From Chitinophagaceae bacterium (GTDB lineage Bacteria; Bacteroidota; Bacteroidia; Chitinophagales; Chitinophagaceae): 12,222 nucleotides of DNA. The DNA lies in the NCBI GenBank assembly GCA_009996555.1, contig JAACZX010000027.1:1-12222 (forward strand), written 5' to 3'. Positions 1 through 11,822 of the stretch are shown piece after piece. Made by a program: the position numbers and the translations under genes. Position 1 is the first letter of the stretch. Each line of letters starts with the position of its first letter. The notes under the pieces are model-generated. The model saw only the letters and a program-made list of their open reading frames with translations, was not told where the DNA came from and made no database searches.

Positions 1-2429
1 AAATTGTTTTTCTTGGCAATAGTATTACCGATGGATCGGAATGGACGCAACTGTTCAATGATGTGCAAATGAAGAACCAGGGCATCAGTGGTGATATTAC
101 AGCAGGTGTATTGCATCGTTTAGCTGTTGTTACTAATCGTAAACCTGCAAAAGTTTTTCTGCTGATCGGTACAAACGATCTGGCAAGAGGCATCAGTGCC
201 GATAGTGTGCTGAAGAATATGCTGTTGATCGCTGATTACATCAAACAGCAATCGCCCAAAACAAAATTGTATGTACAAAGTATTTTGCCGGTGAATGAAG
301 TGTATGGCAAGTTTGCGGGACACACAAAAAATACTGACGTTATTAAGAAAGTAAATGAGCAGCTAAAGACAAATGCAACTGCTCATTACTACCAGTATGT
401 TGATCTGCATACAGCCTTCAGCAATGAAAACGGAAAACTGAAACCTGAACTGAGTAATGATGGATTGCACCTGATGGGCAATGCGTATTTACTGTGGAAG
501 CACATCATTTATCCGTATGTGTACGATCTGCAACCAAAGGCTGCTATTATTCCGCAGCCACAACAACTGCAATGGAAGCAGGGTGCTTTTGCTGTGTACA
601 ATAACAAAACAATTGTACTGAAAGATAAAAGTTTGCTGAAAGAAGCAACACAACTGCAACAATATTTTCAATCGATCGGTTGGGAAATGAAGTTGGCAGA
701 TAAACCAACTGGCGGCGAATCGTTCATTGAAATCGGATTGGGAAAGCTGAAGTCAGCACAACATGAAAACGAAGCGTACCAACTGGATGTAAGTGCAGCA
801 GGCGTAAAACTTTTTGCCAATACTGCACACGGTATTTTCAACGGTATTCAAACATTGAAACAATTGCTGCGCAGCGGAACAATGATTGATGCAGTAAGTA
901 TCACTGATTGGCCTGCCTTCAGCTGGCGTGGTTATATGATCGATGTGGGACGAAATTATATGTCGATGCCCTTGCTGAAACAGCAGATCGATGTAATGGC
1001 TGCCAACAAACTCAATATTTTTCATTTTCATGCAACGGAAGATATTGCGTGGCGCATCGCCATCAAACAATATCCGCAACTCACCGCACCCGAACACATG
1101 CTGCGTAACAAAGGCATGTATTACAGCGAAACAGAGATAAAGGAGTTGATCAATTATTGCAATGAACGACATATTACGTTTGTTCCTGAGATTGATATGC
1201 CCGGCCACAGTGCTGCATTTAAGCGTGCCATGAAAACCGATATGCAGAGCGATAGTGGATTAATGATCGTAAAAAATATCCTGAAAGAATTTATTACAAC
1301 TTATGATGTGCCGTATATCCATATTGGTGCAGATGAAGTAAAGATCACCAACAAAAATTTTGTTCCTGAAGTAACTGCGTTCATCGAGAGTCTTGGAAAA
1401 AAAGTGATCGGCTGGCAGCCTGGTGGTAATTTCAGCAACAGTACTATCCGTCAACTTTGGATGGATGATAATGCACATCTTTCTTCCGATAATAAAATTC
1501 AATTCATTGATTCACGGCATTTGTATTTAAATCACATGGATCCTTTGGAAGCAGTCACCACCATCTTCAACCGAAAAATTGCAGACAAAGAAAAAGGCGA
1601 TGCAACAACACTCGGTGGTACCATCTGTATGTGGCACGACAGAGCAGCAAGCAAAGAAGAAGATATTCTCAACATGAATCCTGTTTATCCCGGCATACTT
1701 GCATTTGCAGAACGCAGCTGGCAGGGTGGTGGTGTTGATGGTTGGGTAGCAAACATCGGCGAACCGAATACTGCAAAAGCAAATGCATTCACTGAGTTTG
1801 AAAAGAGTTTACTTGATCACAAGCAACAATATTTTTCTCAGCTTTCATTTTCTTACGTCCAGCAATCAAATCTTGTTTGGAAATTGTTCGGACCGTTTGA
1901 TAACAAAGGTGATCTGGCGAAACAATTTGCACCGGAGCAAAAAAGTTTTCATGCAGATAAAATAAAACCAGCAGTTGAACAGATGGGTGCAACAATAGTG
2001 CTGCGTCATTGGTGGGCACCGTTAATTAAAGGAGCTGTGCCCAATGCGGAAGACAGTACCACCTGGTATGCCACAACAAAGATCTGGAGCGATGAAGATG
2101 GAGAAAAACAGTTTTGGGTCGGCTTTAATAATTTATCCCGCTCACCTGCAACCGATGCGCCGCCTGCAAATGCATGGGATAACAAACAGAGTGCAGTGTG
2201 GGTAAATGGAAATTTCATTCCTGCGCCACAGTGGAAACATGCAGGACAAAAAGGAAACAGTGAATTGCCGTTGGCTGATGAAGGCTATGAATACCGTAAG
2301 CCAACAACGATTTTATTAAAGAAAGGATGGAACACTGTGTTGATCAAAGCGCCGGTTGGAAGCTTCAAAGGCAAAGACTGGCAAAATCCTGTGAAGTGGA
2401 TGTTTACCTTTGCACCTGTTGAATTCTGA
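1..2429 (+). CDS. SGNH/GDSL esterase - GH20 hexosaminidase fusion (5' partial)
   Basis: The frame is open from base 3 with no stop, so the true start and any signal peptide lie before the window; 808 residues are visible. An SGNH esterase domain fills roughly visible residues 1-170. It has block I GNSIT (nucleophile Ser7), a GISGD glycine region, GTND (Asn58) and DGLH (Asp153/His156). A GH20 N-terminal domain begins at the IIPQP motif near residue 182. The GH20 barrel starts at FSWRGYMIDVGRN near 306 and carries the catalytic pair in HIGADE (Asp444-Glu445). About 200 C-terminal residues look like a beta-sandwich, ending in a KKGWNTVLIKAP stretch. Known for GH20: retaining hydrolysis of terminal beta-GlcNAc/GalNAc with substrate-assisted catalysis. 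The motifs differ from the next gene (HFHATED for HWHLVDD, WHDR for WTEY), so substrate preference may differ. Inferred role: periplasmic or surface deacylation plus exo-hexosaminidase action. It is probably co-transcribed with the GH20 gene 24 bases downstream. Confidence 0.88.
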   Translation, partial: IVFLGNSITDGSEWTQLFNDVQMKNQGISGDITAGVLHRLAVVTNRKPAKVFLLIGTNDLARGISADSVLKNMLLIADYIKQQSPKTKLYVQSILPVNEVYGKFAGHTKNTDVIKKVNEQLKTNATAHYYQYVDLHTAFSNENGKLKPELSNDGLHLMGNAYLLWKHIIYPYVYDLQPKAAIIPQPQQLQWKQGAFAVYNNKTIVLKDKSLLKEATQLQQYFQSIGWEMKLADKPTGGESFIEIGLGKLKSAQHENEAYQLDVSAAGVKLFANTAHGIFNGIQTLKQLLRSGTMIDAVSITDWPAFSWRGYMIDVGRNYMSMPLLKQQIDVMAANKLNIFHFHATEDIAWRIAIKQYPQLTAPEHMLRNKGMYYSETEIKELINYCNERHITFVPEIDMPGHSAAFKRAMKTDMQSDSGLMIVKNILKEFITTYDVPYIHIGADEVKITNKNFVPEVTAFIESLGKKVIGWQPGGNFSNSTIRQLWMDDNAHLSSDNKIQFIDSRHLYLNHMDPLEAVTTIFNRKIADKEKGDATTLGGTICMWHDRAASKEEDILNMNPVYPGILAFAERSWQGGGVDGWVANIGEPNTAKANAFTEFEKSLLDHKQQYFSQLSFSYVQQSNLVWKLFGPFDNKGDLAKQFAPEQKSFHADKIKPAVEQMGATIVLRHWWAPLIKGAVPNAEDSTTWYATTKIWSDEDGEKQFWVGFNNLSRSPATDAPPANAWDNKQSAVWVNGNFIPAPQWKHAGQKGNSELPLADEGYEYRKPTTILLKKGWNTVLIKAPVGSFKGKDWQNPVKWMFTFAPVEF

Positions 2430-2453
2430 AAAATAAATAAATTATAATCGATC

Positions 2454-2513
2454 ATGCCATTAAAAATTGTAAAATTCCTGTTGTTGCTTGTTTGTCCGTT
2501 AACCATGTTTGCA
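2454..2513 (+). other. Signal peptide of the GH20 enzyme
   Basis: The first 20 codons give a lysine-containing n-region (MPLKIVK), a leucine-rich hydrophobic core and a small-residue end (MFA), followed by QQ. The only cysteine in it (Cys14) lies in LLVCP, which does not fit a lipobox well, so type I cleavage is more likely than lipidation. Confidence 0.8.
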
Positions 2514-4757
2514 CAACAGGTTTCTATTATTCCGCAGCCGGTTGAATTAAAACTGAACGAAGGAAATTTCAGTATCGATAATAATACTTCTGTACAGTTC
2601 AATGCTTCACAAGCTGCATTAAAACCAGCGGTTGATTTTTTTCTCAACGCTGTAAATGATATTTCAGGCATTACATTGCAGCAGAATAAACCAACAGCAA
2701 AAAAAGTAGAATTCGTACTTGCAGCGCAAACTGCATTCAAACCTGAAGCATACAGCTTAACTGTTACGCCTTCACTTATTCAGATAAAAGCAAGCAGCTA
2801 CGCCGGTATTTTTTACGGCATCCAATCAGTACTGCAAACATTACCACAAGTGCGTACCAATGCGGCCTTGCAGGTGCCGTGTATGCAGATCATGGATGAA
2901 CCTCGTTTTAAATGGAGAGGCATGCATCTTGATGTGAGCCGTCATTTCTTTTCAGCAGATGTAGTAAAACAATACATCAACCTGATGTCGATGTACAAGA
3001 TGAATACATTTCATTGGCATTTGGTAGACGATCAGGGCTGGCGTATTGAAATCAAAAAATATCCCAGGCTTACTTCAACAGGTGCATGGCGTGTTGATCA
3101 GAACGATAAAGTATGGGGCAGCCGTCCGCAGGCGCAACCCGGCGAAGCAGCAACTTACGGTGGCTACTACACGCAGGAACAGGTAAAAGAAATTATTGCT
3201 TATGCGAAAACAAGAAACGTAACTGTTGTTCCTGAAATAGAAATGCCCGGGCATGTGGCATCGGCTATTGCAGCATATCCGCACCTGAGTTGCACGCAAC
3301 AACCGCAGTTATCGCTGACTGGGGGCAATTACAATAACATGTCCTCAAACTATTGCGCAGGTAATGAAGAAGTATTTTCGTTTTTGCAGGATGTGTTAAC
3401 GGAAGTGATCGCTTTGTTTCCTTCAACCTACATTCATATTGGTGGTGATGAAGTGGATAAAGGTCCATGGAAAAAATGTGAGCGTTGCCAGGCACGTATG
3501 AAAAAAGAAGGATTGAAGAACGAAGAAGAGCTGCAGAGTTATTTTATTAAACGCATGGAGAAATTCATCGTCAGCAAAAAAAGGAAAATGATCGGTTGGG
3601 ATGAAATACTTGAAGGAGGATTAGCACCTGAAGCAACCGTGATGAGCTGGCGTGGTGAAGCAGGTGGTATTGAAGCTGCAAAGATGAATCATGATGTGGT
3701 GATGACACCCGGTTCGCCTTGTTACTTCGATCACTACCAGGCAGGACCTGAAGGCGAACCATTGGCAATTGGAGGCTTTAATACCGTTAAGAAAGTGTAC
3801 GATTACGAACCGATACCAAAAGAGTTAAATGCAGAGCAACACAAATATGTTTTAGGTGCGCAAGGCAATGTGTGGACGGAATATATTTCTACTGCAGAAC
3901 ATCTGGAGTACATGGTGTTGCCACGTATGCTGGCATTGGCAGAAACTGTTTGGTCGCCTGCTGCTGCAAAAGATTGGAACAGTTTCAGCAAGCGTTTACA
4001 GTTTCATTTCAAAGCATTCGATGCAAAAGGTTTGCATTATTCACCGGGCAACTTTACTGTTGATATTAAACCCGCTGCAAAAAATGGCAAACTGGAAGTA
4101 GCATTGCTTTCTGAAGTGCCCACAGCTTCTATTCTTTACACAACCGACGGCACAGTGCCCACCATTTCAAGTAGATTGTACACAAAGCCTATTCCTGTTG
4201 AAAGCACACAAACACTTCGTGCAGTAACGATGCAGAACGGAAAGATCATGAACCTGCAACCCGTTGACCAACGGTTTGTGATGCATCAGGCAGTTGGAGC
4301 AAACGTGCAGTATGTACACCAGCCGTCAAGATCATATATGGCCGATGGTGTCAATTCGTTAACGGATGGTGTAAGAGGTAAATCTGCAGTAAATAAATTC
4401 TGGCATGGCTTCAGTAAAAATAATCTTGTTGCAACTGTTGATCTGGGTGCAGAAAAAAACATCAGCAGTATAACATTAGGTTGTCTGCAACATTACCGTG
4501 ACTGGATCTTTTTGCCAACAGCTGTAAGGTTTGAAATATCAGTTGATGGAAAAATATTTACGGAAGCTGCAACTGTACAGAATAATATATCGGTAAATGA
4601 AACGGCACTCACCATCAAAGATTTTACGGCAAAGTTTGCAGCAGCCAATGCCCGTTATGTGCGTGTAACAGCGTTTACACTGGAAGCCTGTCCGAAAGGT
4701 CATCCCGGTGAAGGAAAACCGGCATGGACCTTTGCTGATGAATTAATTGTTGAATAA
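2454..4757 (+). CDS. Secreted beta-N-acetylhexosaminidase, GH20 multi-domain
   Basis: This gene encodes a complete 767-residue exo-beta-N-acetylhexosaminidase that releases terminal GlcNAc or GalNAc. Residues 1-20 form a signal peptide (KIVKFLLLLVC core, likely cut at FA|QQ); no lipobox is seen, so it should be soluble periplasmic or secreted. A GH20 N-terminal domain starts at IIPQP (residue 25). The barrel runs from FKWRGMHLDVSRH (about 152) to about 515 and has canonical HWHLVDDQGWR, the catalytic pair Asp332-Glu333 in HIGGDE, MSWRGE, YFDHYQ and GNVWTEY. A chitobiase-type C-terminal module (about 540-605, LYTTDGTVPT) and an F5/8 type C (discoidin)-like module (about 615-767, TVDLGAEKNISSITLG) follow. 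All catalytic landmarks are intact. The ATG has no Shine-Dalgarno but an A/T-rich leader, common in Bacteroidetes. It follows the fused esterase-GH20 gene by 24 bases and is closed by a strong terminator, suggesting a two-gene or longer transcript. Confidence 0.95.
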   Translation: MPLKIVKFLLLLVCPLTMFAQQVSIIPQPVELKLNEGNFSIDNNTSVQFNASQAALKPAVDFFLNAVNDISGITLQQNKPTAKKVEFVLAAQTAFKPEAYSLTVTPSLIQIKASSYAGIFYGIQSVLQTLPQVRTNAALQVPCMQIMDEPRFKWRGMHLDVSRHFFSADVVKQYINLMSMYKMNTFHWHLVDDQGWRIEIKKYPRLTSTGAWRVDQNDKVWGSRPQAQPGEAATYGGYYTQEQVKEIIAYAKTRNVTVVPEIEMPGHVASAIAAYPHLSCTQQPQLSLTGGNYNNMSSNYCAGNEEVFSFLQDVLTEVIALFPSTYIHIGGDEVDKGPWKKCERCQARMKKEGLKNEEELQSYFIKRMEKFIVSKKRKMIGWDEILEGGLAPEATVMSWRGEAGGIEAAKMNHDVVMTPGSPCYFDHYQAGPEGEPLAIGGFNTVKKVYDYEPIPKELNAEQHKYVLGAQGNVWTEYISTAEHLEYMVLPRMLALAETVWSPAAAKDWNSFSKRLQFHFKAFDAKGLHYSPGNFTVDIKPAAKNGKLEVALLSEVPTASILYTTDGTVPTISSRLYTKPIPVESTQTLRAVTMQNGKIMNLQPVDQRFVMHQAVGANVQYVHQPSRSYMADGVNSLTDGVRGKSAVNKFWHGFSKNNLVATVDLGAEKNISSITLGCLQHYRDWIFLPTAVRFEISVDGKIFTEAATVQNNISVNETALTIKDFTAKFAAANARYVRVTAFTLEACPKGHPGEGKPAWTFADELIVE

Positions 4758-6812: not shown

Positions 6813-7256
6813 ATGTTTATAAAGAAATACTTCGAAGAATTTGCAGTGAATGATGTGCGCCATACACGTGGACGCACAATTACCGAAACTGATATTGTTA
6901 TTCACGCCGGTCAATCTGGTGATTTTTTTCCTCATCACATGGACGAAGAGTGGTGCAAAACGCAGCCGTTTCAAAAACGCATTGCACACGGCACACTCAT
7001 CTTTACGGTAGCTATTGGTCTTACTGCCGATTTTATTAATGAAGTAAGCATGACCTATGGCTATGAGCGTTTGCGTTTTATTAAACCGGTATTCATTAAC
7101 GATACCATCAGAGTAACTGTTACCATTAAAGACAAAAAGGATCATAAGAAACCTGAATTTGGTTTAGTGACCGAACTGGTGGAATGTTTTAATCAGCATA
7201 ACGAACTGGTAATGCTTTGTGAGCATTTGTTATTAGTACATAAAGGAAACAACTGA
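6813..7256 (+). CDS. MaoC-like hot-dog hydratase/dehydratase
   Basis: This 147-residue single hot-dog protein belongs to the MaoC / (R)-enoyl-CoA hydratase type. The hydratase signature is recognisable in [16 protein letters not shown], which fits the family pattern GDxNPxH: Asp37 and His42 match the catalytic pair, while the usual Asn is Phe39. It is followed by the typical RIAHGTL (57-62) and a [13 protein letters not shown] strand. Family members add water to, or remove it from, CoA thioesters in the cytoplasm; some act in mesaconyl-, itaconyl- or C4-C5 acid pathways. The missing Asn suggests an unusual substrate pocket. It is the first gene of the apparent operon, preceded by a candidate promoter and operator, and stops 2 bases before the solute-binding-protein gene. 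Presence of two CoA-transferase genes nearby supports a CoA-thioester role. The exact substrate is unknown. Confidence 0.88.
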
Positions 7257-7261
7257 GAATG
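7245..7261 (+). promoter_or_regulatory. Shine-Dalgarno-like site deciding the solute-binding-protein start
   Basis: GGAAAC, preceded by AAA, lies 11-14 bases before the ATG at 7259, inside the end of the MaoC gene. The same frame has a TAA stop at 7241-7243. The coding region therefore can gain at most five codons upstream, and no signal peptide could be hidden there. Confidence 0.55.
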
Positions 7262-8410
7262 GAAAGGGTGATACTGAATGGCATTACTTGGGGACACAGC
7301 AGGGGCATTACTCCGCTGCTGGCCGTTTCGCAACGTTACAGCGAACTGCATCCTGAAGTGGAGATTCGCTGGAAAAAGCGAACACTCCAGGAGTTTGCTG
7401 ATTTTCCAATTGAAAAACTGACAACCGATTACGACCTTTTAATTATTGATCATCCATGGGTGGGTTGTGCAGCAGCAACTAATTGTGTGTTGCCGTTGAA
7501 CCAATATCTGCCTGCTGCATATTTTCAGGATCAGCAAAATAATTCTGTAGGAAAATCGCACATCAGTTATAATTATGATTTGCAGCAGTGGGCATTGGCT
7601 ATTGATGCTGCCACACCTGTTGCCAGCTATCGTAAAGATCTGCTGAGCAGCATACCGCAAACATGGGATGATGTTCTTGCATTGGCCAAAGAAGGAAAAG
7701 TTGCTGTGCCTGCCATTCCGATTGATCTGCTCATGAATTTTTACAGCTTCTGTATTGCACATGGCAAAGAACCATTTCAATCGGAGGAAGAAGTGATTGA
7801 TGCTGAAACAGGCATCAAGGCCATTGAAACCATGAAGCAGTTGTACAGCCTGGTTGATAAAAAAATGTTCACTTGCAACCCCATTGCTGTGGCAGAGTTA
7901 ATGAGCAGCAGTGACAATTATTTGTATTGTCCGTTTGCTTATGGTTATTCAAACTATGCAAGAAACGGTTATGCAAAACATGTGCTGCATTATACAGATG
8001 TGGTGAGTTTTGGCACACAAAAATTAAGAACAACACTGGGCGGAACAGGTATTGCTGTATCTGCATTCAGTAAGCATAAAGAAGCGGCGGTTGATTTTGC
8101 ACGGATGATCGTTGATGGTGAATGCCAGCGTACAATGTATGTGCAAAACGGAGGACAGCCCGGTCATCGTTCGGCTTGGACAGATGCAGAAGCAAACAGC
8201 ATCACCAATAACTATTTCACCAATACATTGCCTGTGCTCGACAACAGTTATGTTCGTCCCCGCTATAACGGTTATTTGTTTTTCCAGGATCATGCAGGCG
8301 AACCGCTGCAGCAATGTTTACGCAATAATGGCGATCCGCAAACGGTATTACAGGAAATGAATAAACTGTACCATCAATCACTACTCAAAAAAACAGCAGC
8401 AGTAATATGA
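7259..8410 (+). CDS. Solute-binding-protein-like protein without signal peptide
   Basis: The 383-residue product resembles family 1 (sugar-type) ABC solute-binding proteins. Features include an N-terminal strand ending in HSRGITPLLAVSQRYSELHP, YDLLIIDHPWVG (58-69), a domain-crossing ATPVASYRKDLL and PQTWDDVLALAKEGK. A late LGGTGIAVSAFSKHKEAAVDFARMI segment and NGGQPGHRSAW follow. Normal members are exported lipoproteins or periplasmic proteins. Here the N-terminus MERVILNGITWG starts straight at the first core strand, with no hydrophobic leader or lipobox, and an in-frame stop five codons upstream excludes a missed leader. No ABC permease or ATPase gene is in the window. It begins 2 bases after the MaoC gene and its stop overlaps the next start (ATGA at 8407-8410), so it is tightly coupled to two enzymes of CoA metabolism. 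It is therefore probably cytoplasmic; its role as sensor, carrier or enzyme partner is unknown. Confidence 0.82.
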   Translation: MERVILNGITWGHSRGITPLLAVSQRYSELHPEVEIRWKKRTLQEFADFPIEKLTTDYDLLIIDHPWVGCAAATNCVLPLNQYLPAAYFQDQQNNSVGKSHISYNYDLQQWALAIDAATPVASYRKDLLSSIPQTWDDVLALAKEGKVAVPAIPIDLLMNFYSFCIAHGKEPFQSEEEVIDAETGIKAIETMKQLYSLVDKKMFTCNPIAVAELMSSSDNYLYCPFAYGYSNYARNGYAKHVLHYTDVVSFGTQKLRTTLGGTGIAVSAFSKHKEAAVDFARMIVDGECQRTMYVQNGGQPGHRSAWTDAEANSITNNYFTNTLPVLDNSYVRPRYNGYLFFQDHAGEPLQQCLRNNGDPQTVLQEMNKLYHQSLLKKTAAVI

Positions 8411-9552
8411 CGATGTTGCCATTACAAGGAATTATTGTGCTGGAATTTTGCCAGTATCTATCAGGGCCGTCGGCTTCATTACGACTGGCCGATCTTGGTG
8501 CAAGAGTGATCAAGATCGAACGTCCAAAAACAGGTGATGCCGGAAGGAAACTGGCCATCAAGGATATGTGGGTTGATGATAATTCATTATTGTTTCACAC
8601 CATTAACCGCAACAAAGAAAGTTTTACTGCCGATCTGAAAAACGAAGATGATAAAGCTGTGCTGTATAAGCTTATTCAGAAAGCAGATGTACTCATTCAC
8701 AATTTCCGTCCTGATGTAATGGGAAAGAATGGGCTTGATTATGCTACTGTACAACAACTGAACCCAAGATTGGTGTATGCAGAAATATCGGGTTACGGCA
8801 AGAAGGGTCCCTGGAAAAACAAACCCGGACAGGATCTGTTGCTGCAATCAATGTCGGGCCTTGCATATACAACCGGCAATGGCAGTAACGGCCCTGTGCC
8901 GTTTGGTATTTCTATTACAGATATATTGGCAGGTTCGCAATTAGTGCAGGGCGTGTTAGGTGCACTTATCCGCCGTCAAAAAACAAATAAGGGAGCTTTA
9001 ATTGAAGTGAGCCTGCTGGAATCGATACTCGATTTTCAGTTTGAATTACTCACTACATATTTTGCAAATGATGTGCAGCCAAAACGAAGTGTGGTGGCAA
9101 ATGGCCAACCATTGTTAGGTGCACCATACGGTATTTATGAAACAGCAAACGGGCATCTTGCATTGGCAATGATGGATATTCATCAGCTGGCAGATACTGT
9201 TCAATGCCCAGCTGTTAAAGCATTTGCAAAAGAAGATGCATTTGCAAAACGTGATGAGATCAAACAATTGCTGGCAGATCATCTCAAAGAAAAAGAAACA
9301 GCGTATTGGTTAAACTTGTTACAGGAAGCCGGGTTGTGGGCCATGGAGGTAATGAACTGGGACGGTTTAACAAAGCATGATGCATATCGTGTATTGAAAA
9401 TGGAACAGAACGTTTCAATCAACGAAAAGCAGTTTATCACAACACGATGTCCGATACGTATTGACGGAGAATTGTTACTGTCTGCAAAGCCTGCACCGCA
9501 GCTGGGCGAACAGAATGAAGTGATCAGAAGAGAGTTGGTAGCCGGTAGTTGA
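8407..9552 (+). CDS. Class III CoA-transferase (CaiB/BaiF), copy 1
   Basis: This 381-residue protein is of normal length for the CaiB/BaiF family, which moves CoA from one acyl-CoA to a carboxylic acid through an aspartyl intermediate. Landmarks are LEFCQYLSGPSASLRLADLGARVIKIERP near the N-terminus, NRNKESFTADLK, HNFRPDVMGKNGLDY, YAEISGYGKKGPW and GQDLLLQ. Asp143 in GQDLLLQ aligns with the catalytic Asp of formyl-CoA transferase and CaiB. The ATG at 8407 overlaps the stop of the preceding gene by four bases, indicating translational coupling. A second ATG at 8413 would give the same N-terminal length as the paralogue and is equally plausible. The acyl donor and acceptor cannot be named. It is clearly related to the second CoA-transferase at 9789. 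Confidence 0.93.
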   Translation: MTMLPLQGIIVLEFCQYLSGPSASLRLADLGARVIKIERPKTGDAGRKLAIKDMWVDDNSLLFHTINRNKESFTADLKNEDDKAVLYKLIQKADVLIHNFRPDVMGKNGLDYATVQQLNPRLVYAEISGYGKKGPWKNKPGQDLLLQSMSGLAYTTGNGSNGPVPFGISITDILAGSQLVQGVLGALIRRQKTNKGALIEVSLLESILDFQFELLTTYFANDVQPKRSVVANGQPLLGAPYGIYETANGHLALAMMDIHQLADTVQCPAVKAFAKEDAFAKRDEIKQLLADHLKEKETAYWLNLLQEAGLWAMEVMNWDGLTKHDAYRVLKMEQNVSINEKQFITTRCPIRIDGELLLSAKPAPQLGEQNEVIRRELVAGS

Positions 9553-9788: not shown

Positions 9789-10958
9789 ATGAAACTATTA
9801 GAAGATATATTGGTCATTGATTTCAGCCAGTTCCTTTCGGGACCATCTGCAGCATTGCGGTTGGCCGATATGGGAGCGCAGGTGATCAAAGTGGAGCGCC
9901 CGGGCACAGGCGATATTTGCCGTGAGTTATATGTATCTGATGTAATGATTGAAGGTGAATCAACCATCTTTCATGCCATTAACCGCAACAAGCAAAGCTA
10001 TGCGGCCGATCTCAAGAATCCTGATGATCTCTTCAAAATAAAACAGCTCATTGCAAAGGCCGATGTGGTGATGCATAATTTCCGTCCCGGAGTAATGAAA
10101 CGCATCGGGCTTGATTACGAAACAGTGAAGCAGATAAAACCAGATGTGATCTATGCTGAGATAAGTGGTTATGGCAGCGAAGGCCCTTGGAAAAATTTAC
10201 CGGGTCAGGATCTGCTGTTGCAATCAGTGTCGGGGTTGGCATGGCTGAGTAATAATATTCATGAAAGTCCTACACCAATGGGTGTGGCAGTAGTGGATAT
10301 TATGGCGGGAACACATGTTGCACAGGGTATTCTTGCGTCACTTTTTCGCAAAGGGCAAACAGGCGAAGGAGCGTTGGTGCAGGTGAGTATGCTGGAAAGT
10401 ATTCTTGATTTCCAGTTTGAAGTGTTAACCTGTTATTATAATGATGGAAAACAATTACCGGTACGTGGTGCAGTAAACAGTGCCCACGCTTATATTGCAG
10501 CGCCTTACGGCCTGTATAAAACAAATGATGATTACATTGCGCTGGCAATGACCAATATTCCCACGCTGGCAGCGTTGTTGCAATGTGAACCATTGAAACA
10601 ATTTACCGACAGTAACGATTGGTTTGCAAAGCGGGATGAGATCAAAAGTATTTTAGCACAGCACCTTGCCACGCAATCAGTACAGTACTGGCTGAGTGTA
10701 CTGGAAAAAGCGGATGTATGGTGCGCCCCGGTAATGAATTACGATGCATTGGTGAAGCAGGAGGGGTACCGCCTGCTGGAAATGGAAATAAAAGTGCAAA
10801 CGGGCAACGGACTTACAGTCAGCACTACACGATGCCCCATACGGGTTGATGGTGAAGTGCAGTTATCGGGCAAAGGTGCACCTGCTTTGGGCGAGCATAA
10901 CAATCAGATTGAACAACAGTTTGGTTTAAACACTCACCTGCAGGATGTAAGTAAATAA
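9789..10958 (+). CDS. Class III CoA-transferase (CaiB/BaiF), copy 2
   Basis: This 389-residue paralogue of the CoA-transferase at 8407 has the same domain order without gaps over the first 200 residues: IDFSQFLSGPSAALRLADMGAQVIKVERP, NRNKQSYAADLKNPDD, HNFRPGVMKRIGLDY, YAEISGYGSEGPW and GQDLLLQ. The catalytic Asp is Asp141. By eye more than half of the residues are identical in that part. The middle region after residue 215 and the C-terminus differ more, and it has an extra tail of about 10 residues. Both copies keep the catalytic Asp. Known class III enzymes include heteromers made of two related subunits (SmtAB, BbsEF), so these two may form one enzyme or act on two different acids. The lactonase gene starts 9 bases downstream. 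Confidence 0.93.
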   Translation: MKLLEDILVIDFSQFLSGPSAALRLADMGAQVIKVERPGTGDICRELYVSDVMIEGESTIFHAINRNKQSYAADLKNPDDLFKIKQLIAKADVVMHNFRPGVMKRIGLDYETVKQIKPDVIYAEISGYGSEGPWKNLPGQDLLLQSVSGLAWLSNNIHESPTPMGVAVVDIMAGTHVAQGILASLFRKGQTGEGALVQVSMLESILDFQFEVLTCYYNDGKQLPVRGAVNSAHAYIAAPYGLYKTNDDYIALAMTNIPTLAALLQCEPLKQFTDSNDWFAKRDEIKSILAQHLATQSVQYWLSVLEKADVWCAPVMNYDALVKQEGYRLLEMEIKVQTGNGLTVSTTRCPIRVDGEVQLSGKGAPALGEHNNQIEQQFGLNTHLQDVSK

Positions 10959-10967
10959 CCCTTGCCG

Positions 10968-11822
10968 ATGATACAGAAGATTGCAGATACACATGTTCAT
11001 ATATGGGATTTTAACCGTGCTGAATATGCATGGTTGAAAAACAATACCAGCATTCTCAACCGCACGTATTCAATTGAAGAGCTGGAGAACGAACGTGTTG
11101 ATTCAGGTATTACAACAGGCATCCTGGTTCAGGCGGCCAATAATTTTGAGGATACAGACTGGATGTTACATGTGGCAGTAAACAGCACATGGATTGCGGG
11201 TATTGTAGGATGGCTTCCTTTAACTGATCCTGATGCTACATTAAAAGCACTGCAAAAAAAATACGGGAAAGAAAAATATTTCAAAGGCGTTCGTCATTTG
11301 ATACATGATGAGCCTGATCCATATTGGTTGTTGCAGCCTGCTGTGATCAACAGTATGCATATACTTGCTGATCATAATATCCCTTATGATGTAGTGGGTG
11401 TTTTGCCGGAGCATATAGAAGCTGCACTGGAGGTAGCAAACAAAGTTCCTGATCTGAAAATGGTGTTCGATCATTTAAATCAGCCACCTGTTGCAACAAA
11501 AGAACAATTTGGAAGATGGGGTGAGCTGATGAAAGAAGCAGCACAGCATAAAAATTTTTATGCAAAGATCTCCGGCCTCGGCACAACAGCACAACGTGGC
11601 GATGAATGGACCGGGGAAGATATAAAACCATATATAGCATTTGCTATTGATCAGTTTGGAACCGATCGTTGTTTTATTGGCGGCGATTGGCCGGTATCAT
11701 TGCTGGCAGGTTCTTACAGCAACACCTTGAAAAATTACAAAGATGTTATTCATGAATTGGTAGATACAGCAGCAGCGGAAAAAATATTTTATTCCAATGC
11801 TGCAAACTTTTATTCCTTTTAA
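10968..11822 (+). CDS. COG3618-type lactonase/amidohydrolase
   Basis: This 284-residue TIM-barrel metal hydrolase belongs to the amidohydrolase 2 group that includes L-fuconolactonase, L-rhamnono-lactonase and 2-pyrone-4,6-dicarboxylate lactonase. Landmarks from the ATG at 10968 are DTHVHIWD (His9/His11), YAWL, FKGVRHLIHDEPD (about 105-117), VFDHLNQP (His169), YAKISGL (about 198-204) and the closing FIGGDWPV with the barrel Asp240. GVRHxIxDEPD is typical of the lactonase branch. An in-frame TTG at 10962 could add two residues, but the ATG gives MIQKIADTHVH, the more usual family N-terminus. It is expected to open a sugar or aromatic-acid lactone in the cytoplasm. It lies 9 bases after the second CoA-transferase and 17 bases before a RhaT-like symporter, which favours a sugar-derived lactone. 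Decarboxylase activity is a less likely alternative. Confidence 0.88.
   Translation: MIQKIADTHVHIWDFNRAEYAWLKNNTSILNRTYSIEELENERVDSGITTGILVQAANNFEDTDWMLHVAVNSTWIAGIVGWLPLTDPDATLKALQKKYGKEKYFKGVRHLIHDEPDPYWLLQPAVINSMHILADHNIPYDVVGVLPEHIEAALEVANKVPDLKMVFDHLNQPPVATKEQFGRWGELMKEAAQHKNFYAKISGLGTTAQRGDEWTGEDIKPYIAFAIDQFGTDRCFIGGDWPVSLLAGSYSNTLKNYKDVIHELVDTAAAEKIFYSNAANFYSF

Follow-up and report, generated by a model that had tools for sequence, protein, structure and literature searches.

Gene organization of the locus

The DNA analysed here (hereafter, the window) is the complete contig JAACZX010000027.1 of 12222 bases, from the draft genome of a Chitinophagaceae bacterium (assembly GCA_009996555.1; 801 contigs). 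It harbors a gene for a family-1 solute-binding protein (SBP), named SBP1, which starts 2 bases after the stop codon of a MaoC-type hydratase gene and overlaps, through a shared ATGA, the first of two genes for class III coenzyme A (CoA)-transferases, CaiB1 and CaiB2 (Table 1). Both junctions had been pointed out in an earlier reading of this sequence (the original prediction), and the coordinates of both were borne out; through the ATGA, SBP1 and CaiB1 are presumably translationally coupled.

Both CoA-transferases match the PF02515 profile, and the catalytic-Asp motif could be read in each; we take this Asp to have the catalytic role of its counterpart in formyl-CoA transferase. The motif is present in 37/37 related CaiB proteins (34 by pattern, 3 by eye). 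In the CaiB tree, CaiB1 and CaiB2 fall into sister clades of 21 members each (support 0.995 and 0.831). The MaoC protein combines its PF01575 match with a GD..PHH.D motif, whose Asp and His are presumably catalytic and which is kept in 15 of 16 MaoC proteins from related loci; its top NCBIfam model is PaaZ (hydratase part; 99.6 bits, under the cut-off of 562.8). The amidohydrolase encoded downstream scored 141.1 bits against the L-fucono-1,5-lactonase model, under the cut-off of 400, and is probably a sugar lactonase. As originally predicted, no ATP-binding cassette (ABC) permease or ATPase was found by Pfam among the eight main open reading frames of the window, the downstream end of the contig being cut.

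Table 1. Positions in the window of SBP1 and its neighbours, and genes of the related locus L028 (genome G170). aa, amino acids.
Feature	Location	Strand	Remarks
MaoC-type hydratase/dehydratase	6813..7256	+	147 aa; PF01575 85.8 bits (cut-off 27)
In-frame TAA before SBP1 start	7241..7243	+	direct sequence reading; bars an N-terminal leader
Leaderless family-1 solute-binding protein (SBP1)	7259..8410	+	ATG start, TGA stop; 383 aa
ATGA overlap of SBP1 stop and CaiB1 start	8407..8410	+	sequence reading
Class III CoA-transferase CaiB1	8407..9552	+	381 aa; PF02515 316.8 bits; catalytic-Asp motif
Class III CoA-transferase CaiB2	9789..10958	+	389 aa; PF02515 323.5 bits; sister paralogue of CaiB1
Amidohydrolase, L-fuconolactonase group	10962..11822	+	286 aa; TTG start as listed; PF04909 135.1 bits
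L-fucose dehydrogenase	L028, divergent neighbour		NF052481 357.3 bits (cut-off 300)
Fuconolactonase relative	L028, divergent neighbour		267.6 bits, under cut-off 400
2,4-didehydro-3-deoxy-L-rhamnonate hydrolase relative	L028, divergent neighbour		377.9 bits, under cut-off 500
Zn-dependent dehydrogenase	L028, divergent neighbour		
FucP	L028, last in SBP operon		TIGR00885 364.1 bits (cut-off 280.4)

SBP1 has a solute-binding-protein fold and no export signal

SBP1 had been predicted to adopt an SBP fold that begins directly at the first core strand, and this was upheld by two lines of evidence: Pfam matches above cut-off (SBP_bac_1, PF01547, 49.9 bits, cut-off 26; SBP_bac_8, PF13416, 49.6 bits, cut-off 27), and a confident AlphaFold2 model of the 383 residues (predicted local distance difference test (pLDDT) score 94.6, predicted template modelling (pTM) score 0.91), which shows the two-lobe SBP fold with its first strand at residues 4-11. 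The nearest homologues bearing a name are Lacibacter proteins that are 78-80% identical, and another homologue is 93% identical; database names of homologues read "extracellular solute-binding protein" or "multiple sugar transport system substrate-binding protein". Across 51 sequences 38 columns are invariant, and 31 across a wider set of 60; R15, D59, D64, H65, D116, R125, D127, R333 and R335 are invariant in both.

The in-frame TAA, read directly from the sequence, excludes a missed leader, as had been argued. Comparison of SBP1 with 120 close homologues listed of 5239 revealed a TW.H motif at residue 9 or 10 in 119 of the 121 sequences and a one-residue variant at the same place in the remaining 2, so that the start position is common to all 121. 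We then scanned 99 loci for possible leaders, namely the window, 18 relatives from Bacteroidota, and 80 loci from a scan of GTDB contigs, the best of its 577 confirmed matches. The motif was located in 98 of them, with the nearest start codon 0 to 11 codons before it, and the longest possible N-terminal extension contained a mildly hydrophobic stretch in only one of the 99. The test combines hydrophobicity and start position, a crude measure used without a dedicated predictor; for the first 40 residues it gave 1.62-1.85 for the CaiB proteins of the window versus 2.33 for an exported SBP. By this test, together with the in-frame stop and the leaderless start, no export signal was found in SBP1. 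Misassembly, local loss of the leader and a missed start were ruled out by the in-frame stop and the start shared by 121/121 sequences.

Homologues with signal peptides, which by the original prediction would speak against it, are absent from the 120 close homologues listed and do exist further away, as P0258 and P0273 carry leaders of the twin-arginine translocation (Tat) type. Export appears to have been retained or regained in rare family members. Most of the other long N-termini among the 44 long relatives described below appear to be over-extended gene calls. Judging from these sequences, the evidence says that the members examined, the two distant ones aside, would remain in the cytoplasm.

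The SBP gene is paired with CoA-transferase genes

We determined the distribution of SBP (E<=1e-10) and of the CaiB1 clade (E<=1e-60) in an evenly drawn sample of 395 Bacteroidota genomes. SBP was found in 19 of them, in one copy each; the least significant of these matches had an E-value of 2.1e-128, and no others appeared down to 1e-10. The CaiB1 clade was found in the same 19, in two copies each (38 matches; worst E-value 1.8e-115). Hence 19 genomes have both, none has either alone, and 376 have neither.

Around the SBP gene of the 18 Bacteroidota relatives, which span four families, the order SBP-CaiB1-CaiB2 is present in 17, with a 4-base overlap between SBP and CaiB1 in 10 of these 17. 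The exception (G286) shows a lone SBP gene and, at a distance of about 60 kb on that contig, the set CaiB-CaiB-SBP2-Gfo-MaoC. A MaoC or crotonase gene is present in 17 of the 18 stretches. Because only four families are represented and linked genes can move together, the 18 relatives are not independent. In 11 of them a second leaderless SBP gene (SBP2) lies downstream of CaiB2. SBP2, of about 407-418 aa in most cases, forms a branch clearly different from SBP1 and was seen at loci L025-L029, L031-L035, L037, L040, L047 and L139.

The same pairing was observed in the best 80 loci of the GTDB-contig scan, mostly titled Hyphomicrobiales. Here, neighbour genes were identified in tblastn searches (E<=1e-8) from a small reference set, which diverged genes can escape, and adjacency means within 400 bp, on the same strand in the case of CaiB; since 9 of the 80 loci are under 15 kb, the numbers given for outer genes should be read as lower bounds. 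SBP adjoins CaiB in 77 of the 80 loci, with the gene order reversed relative to Bacteroidota, and 68 of these 77 junctions show the 4-base overlap, a count that considered start codons up to 12 codons from the junction, used the nearest, and is thereby biased toward short gaps. In the 3 exceptional genomes, a CaiB of this group is present elsewhere. The exported SBPs of the same 80 loci served as an internal control: 58 of 60 adjoin a permease and none adjoins CaiB. Both data sets show leaderless homologues beside CaiB genes, the neighbourhood that the original prediction called for. CaiB is usually single in alphaproteobacteria, while Bacteroidota have the CaiB1/CaiB2 pair. The pairing was also seen in plasmid records of Sinorhizobium, Martelella, Shinella, Ponticoccus, Methylobacterium, Variovorax, Azospirillum, Rhizobium and Streptomyces, and culturable Sinorhizobium and Mesorhizobium are among the carriers of family members.

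Natural fusions of SBP and CaiB

A search with a joined SBP and CaiB1 query returned 496 proteins; the 120 listed comprise 118 CaiB-CaiB fusions and 2 SBP-CaiB fusions. A second search, with the SBP part of the fusion P0197 against longer proteins (capped at 8000 candidates), listed 44 long relatives, 7 of them SBP-CaiB fusions. In all, at least six SBP-CaiB fusions are clean, and they form three like pairs: P0197/P0243, P0271/P0276 and P0279/P0283. When one CaiB half per pair was placed in the CaiB tree, the three fell in separate parts of it, so that the clean fusions represent at least three lineages; CaiB2-like halves occur in P0197 and P0243, and the other clean fusions have other CaiB types. 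All six come from metagenome-type sources, and an insertion or deletion at the 4-base overlap could fake such a fusion; because they recur in pairs with intact ends, we consider them unlikely to be artefacts.

Three further proteins were set aside. P0239 was not counted as clean, because its SBP half, toward the C terminus, loses register with related proteins; P0269, a candidate for a MaoC remnant joined to SBP, gave no MaoC match in Pfam; and P0265, an SBP with a partial aldehyde dehydrogenase, was not counted as informative. The CaiB-CaiB fusions (P0123 and 117 further ones listed) include P0147 of Hymenobacter aerilatus, and the group suggests a heteromeric CoA-transferase.

Search for importer partners

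No ABC permease or ATPase gene was detected within 400 bp of the leaderless SBP in any of the 80 loci, nor in the 18 Bacteroidota stretches, with the small tblastn reference set. At the level of whole genomes, the permease profile PF00528 had no match in 2 of the 19 SBP-bearing genomes (G150 and G107, each recorded as 100% complete) and a single match in six more; for the other 17 genomes, the matches were tallied as totals. An ABC partner encoded elsewhere in the genome is therefore disfavoured by the two genomes lacking a PF00528 match. The Bacteroidota clusters contain instead secondary transporters, with FucP relatives in 11 and RhaT relatives in 5 of the 18. Taken together, the gene content indicates that the SBP does not serve an importer.

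Sugar-pathway genes and an apparently missing dehydratase

The genes around the SBP resemble those of oxidative 6-deoxyhexose catabolism. The window itself contributes only the lactonase relative to the fucose gene set, with dehydrogenase and FucP outside it, and the fuller set is illustrated by locus L028 (Table 1). A set of dehydrogenase, lactonase and Zn-dependent dehydrogenase was found in 8 of the 18 Bacteroidota loci, with the hydrolase as well in 7. Among the best 80 of 577 loci, the lactonase family is present in 63, Gfo/Idh/MocA in 52, the rhamnose-mutarotase family in 49, MaoC in 75, an IclR relative in 67 and a LacI relative in 2. According to PMC8222616, COG3254 and COG3618 (in our reading, the families of the mutarotase and the lactonase) frequently go together in IclR regulons; the paper also refers to an L-fucose mutarotase that belongs to the non-phosphorylative pathway.

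In four genomes (G170, G343, G324 and G025) a search covering two families, the enolase superfamily and IlvD/EDD, recognised no aldonate dehydratase. The eight MR_MLE proteins named in these genomes score best with models for dipeptide epimerase/DgcA or MenC, in every case below the cut-off. Each genome has one ILVD_EDD gene; that of G170, the only one named, is IlvD (803.3 bits, cut-off 644). Weak PF13378 hits in 434-aa frames were taken to be enolase itself. On the basis of this MR_MLE and ILVD_EDD naming, the four genomes have fucose-type clusters without a visible fuconate dehydratase. The full neighbour set was found at three of the four loci, the hydrolase not being found in the G025 stretch, and in these clusters CaiB, MaoC, SBP and Gfo sit without an assigned role. 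Other genomes of the 19 have stronger MR_MLE matches. A crotonase-type hydratase takes the place of MaoC at L024 and L030 and in Variovorax, Sinorhizobium K101, Streptomyces and Azospirillum, an interchange that fits dehydration of a 3-hydroxyacyl-CoA.

Some further genes were also observed. The window contains two genes for hexosaminidases of glycoside hydrolase family 20 (GH20), at 63-2429 and 2454-4757; the former starts 63 bases in from the contig edge. It encodes a GDSL domain together with GH20, and the strongest match covers just positions 1-191 of the 348-position catalytic profile. Locus L028 encodes at 10-2517 (minus strand) a single chain with a GH141 domain and a C-terminal L-rhamnose mutarotase domain. 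In G214 (L207, 457-8394), a PF01120 alpha-L-fucosidase, a GH20 protein and a galactonate-dehydratase-like gene of the enolase superfamily lie about 4 to 12 kb past the SBP operon.

Discussion

On balance, we favour the view that this cytoplasmic SBP acts as the ligand-binding partner of a class III CoA-transferase, and probably as one of its subunits, in the catabolism of 6-deoxyhexose sugar acids. The parts of this view differ in strength. That the SBP is a partner of the CoA-transferase is likely; that the SBP/CoA-transferase module belongs to a sugar-acid pathway also appears likely, if a little less so, from its neighbours, with L-fucose or L-rhamnose the most likely 6-deoxyhexose; a CoA-dependent dehydration of the aldonate that would replace the work of fuconate or rhamnonate dehydratase is a tentative proposal, drawn from analogy. 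The central claim of the original prediction, a non-exported SBP with an intracellular job tied to a CoA-transferase, has stood up in the conserved leaderless start, the co-occurrence, the adjacency with its internal control, the fusions and the permease-free genomes. Among the jobs that it had offered, a repurposed subunit or a substrate carrier feeding the CoA-transferase fits best, and a pure sensor is less favoured.

From gene content, we infer a physical SBP-CaiB complex and the following ligand, chemistry and order of steps. A dehydrogenase and a lactonase would convert the 6-deoxyhexose, by the oxidative, non-phosphorylative route, into an aldonate; the SBP would capture this aldonate in the cytoplasm and hand it to the CoA-transferase, which would form the aldonyl-CoA. 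MaoC, or a crotonase-type enoyl-CoA hydratase in other lineages, would dehydrate the ester at C2/C3, and the 2-keto-3-deoxy product would pass its CoA to the next aldonate. The CoA-free product would then be oxidised and cleaved by a hydrolase of the fumarylacetoacetate hydrolase (FAH) type.

Several observations weigh against this scheme or parts of it: (i) in the AlphaFold2 model of the fusion P0197 the halves are confident (pLDDT 92.1), but the pTM is 0.59 and the linker of low confidence, so that a fixed SBP-CaiB interface is without support, (ii) one fusion joins the SBP to an MR_MLE protein of the enolase superfamily instead of CaiB (P0260; 7 member sequences, 3 contigs), and in the precomputed Pfam list one SBP lies behind helix-turn-helix domains (P0248), perhaps through fusion to a regulator or as an artefact of gene calling, (iii) the Tat-like leaders occur in 2 of the 44 long relatives, P0258 (an Opitutaceae assembly) and P0273, both distant homologues outside the 120 close ones, (iv) on pSymB of S. 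meliloti 1021 (L039, 6839-7995) the CaiB beside a whole SBP matches as two pieces in different frames, and may be a broken gene or a sequence error, the CaiB of strain RCAM1750 (L038) being in a single frame, (v) the contig of the window runs out downstream, with the remaining operon genes beyond its end, (vi) an MR_MLE gene lies within the same stretch in 44 of the best 80 loci, and (vii) in G214 a galactonate-dehydratase-like gene is found about 4 kb past the SBP operon. In one Shinella locus, the two named MR_MLE proteins resemble galactonate and talarate/galactarate dehydratases, both sub-cut-off. Because MR_MLE co-resides in 44/80 loci, the CoA route is no simple replacement there, and a universal rule by which it replaces the MR_MLE dehydratase was ruled out.

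These MR_MLE genes, in the 44 loci and near the G214 operon, speak for the strongest alternative, which we regard as a substantial possibility although it falls short of an even chance: the CoA-transferase, SBP and MaoC would act on another compound or at a later step, with the SBP still a partner and the dehydration performed by another enzyme. Two CoA-transferases would exceed the needs of a single dehydration, and the dehydratase search covered two families, which also suits this alternative. Against it, fucose-type oxidation genes lie beside the module in G170, G343, G324 and G025, whose named MR_MLE proteins look like dipeptide epimerase/DgcA or MenC, and the ILVD_EDD protein of G170 is IlvD.

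It is rather unlikely, though worth considering, that the SBP itself has catalytic activity on a sugar acid or its CoA ester, such as that of a dehydratase, lyase or thioesterase, with the CoA-transferase supplying the substrate. Many of the invariant columns are charged or polar, more like an active site than a ligand-variable binding site; fusion with CaiB or with an enolase-superfamily protein would suit a metabolic enzyme; and thiaminase I is an enzyme with a periplasmic-binding-protein fold. Less probable again is an intracellular ligand sensor that switches on the CoA-transferase or the operon without handling substrate. The SBP fold suits ligand sensing, the pairing with one enzyme is strict, IclR and LacI relatives occur in 67 and 2 of the 80 loci, and P0248 (1 of 44 long relatives) has its helix-turn-helix domains; however, Pfam found no DNA-binding or signalling domain in the SBP of the window, the remaining fusions link SBP to enzymes, and many clusters already hold dedicated regulators. 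Finally, an ABC-importer SBP of the usual exported kind, with a leader that was missed, locally lost or misassembled, is suggested by the "extracellular solute-binding protein" annotation and the two distant Tat-like homologues, but can practically be dismissed given the upstream in-frame stop, the leaderless start throughout the close group, the absence of a detected permease beside the gene in 80/80 loci and of a PF00528 match in 2/19 genomes, and the FucP or RhaT secondary transporters of the Bacteroidota clusters.

Should the partnership of SBP and CoA-transferase be true, it would constitute a new type of subunit for CoA-transferases, and the sugar-catching module of an importer would have been reused in the cytoplasm. 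If the pathway is also true, a missing step of deoxy-sugar catabolism would be filled by a CoA-thioester route, which is unusual for sugars, giving a previously undescribed CoA-dependent sugar-acid route with an SBP as the substrate-binding subunit of a metabolic enzyme. The "extracellular" and "transport" names of the homologues conflict with the evidence for an intracellular metabolic enzyme system. In the open-access literature, searched by title and start of abstract, with subscription papers and preprints mostly outside, we found no description of an SBP working with a CoA-transferase.

Comparison with known systems

The closest parallel for the proposed chemistry is the CaiB/CaiD system of E. 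coli, which dehydrates carnitine via its CoA ester; the E. coli CaiB (1xk6) was among the sequence matches of a CoA-transferase of the window. Both systems pair a class III CoA-transferase with a hydratase, whose expected substrate for dehydration is the CoA ester of a 3-hydroxy acid, and in both the CoA could cycle between substrate and product. They differ in the substrate, here presumably a sugar acid, and in the hydratase, here usually MaoC; we know of no SBP in the CaiB/CaiD system. Benzylsuccinate CoA-transferase (PDB 9fn0) likewise has two class III subunits, recalling the CaiB1 and CaiB2 sister clades and their fusion in other organisms; unlike it, both CaiB proteins of the window retain the catalytic-Asp motif, and to our knowledge it too has no SBP.

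With the non-phosphorylative L-fucose/L-rhamnose pathway, the related clusters share a dehydrogenase, a putative lactonase, a putative FAH-type hydrolase, the mutarotase family and FucP or RhaT. In contrast to that pathway, the usual enolase-superfamily dehydratase went unrecognised in the four genomes, and SBP, CaiB and MaoC are extra. Thiaminase I offers a precedent for an SBP-like fold outside transport. Compared with the family-1 sugar SBPs themselves (TMBP, 1eu8; MalE3, 6dtq; SmoF, 7yzs), SBP1 has neither an export signal nor ABC partners that we could find; it has instead an invariant set of charged residues, and is encoded with, and sometimes fused to, CoA-transferases.

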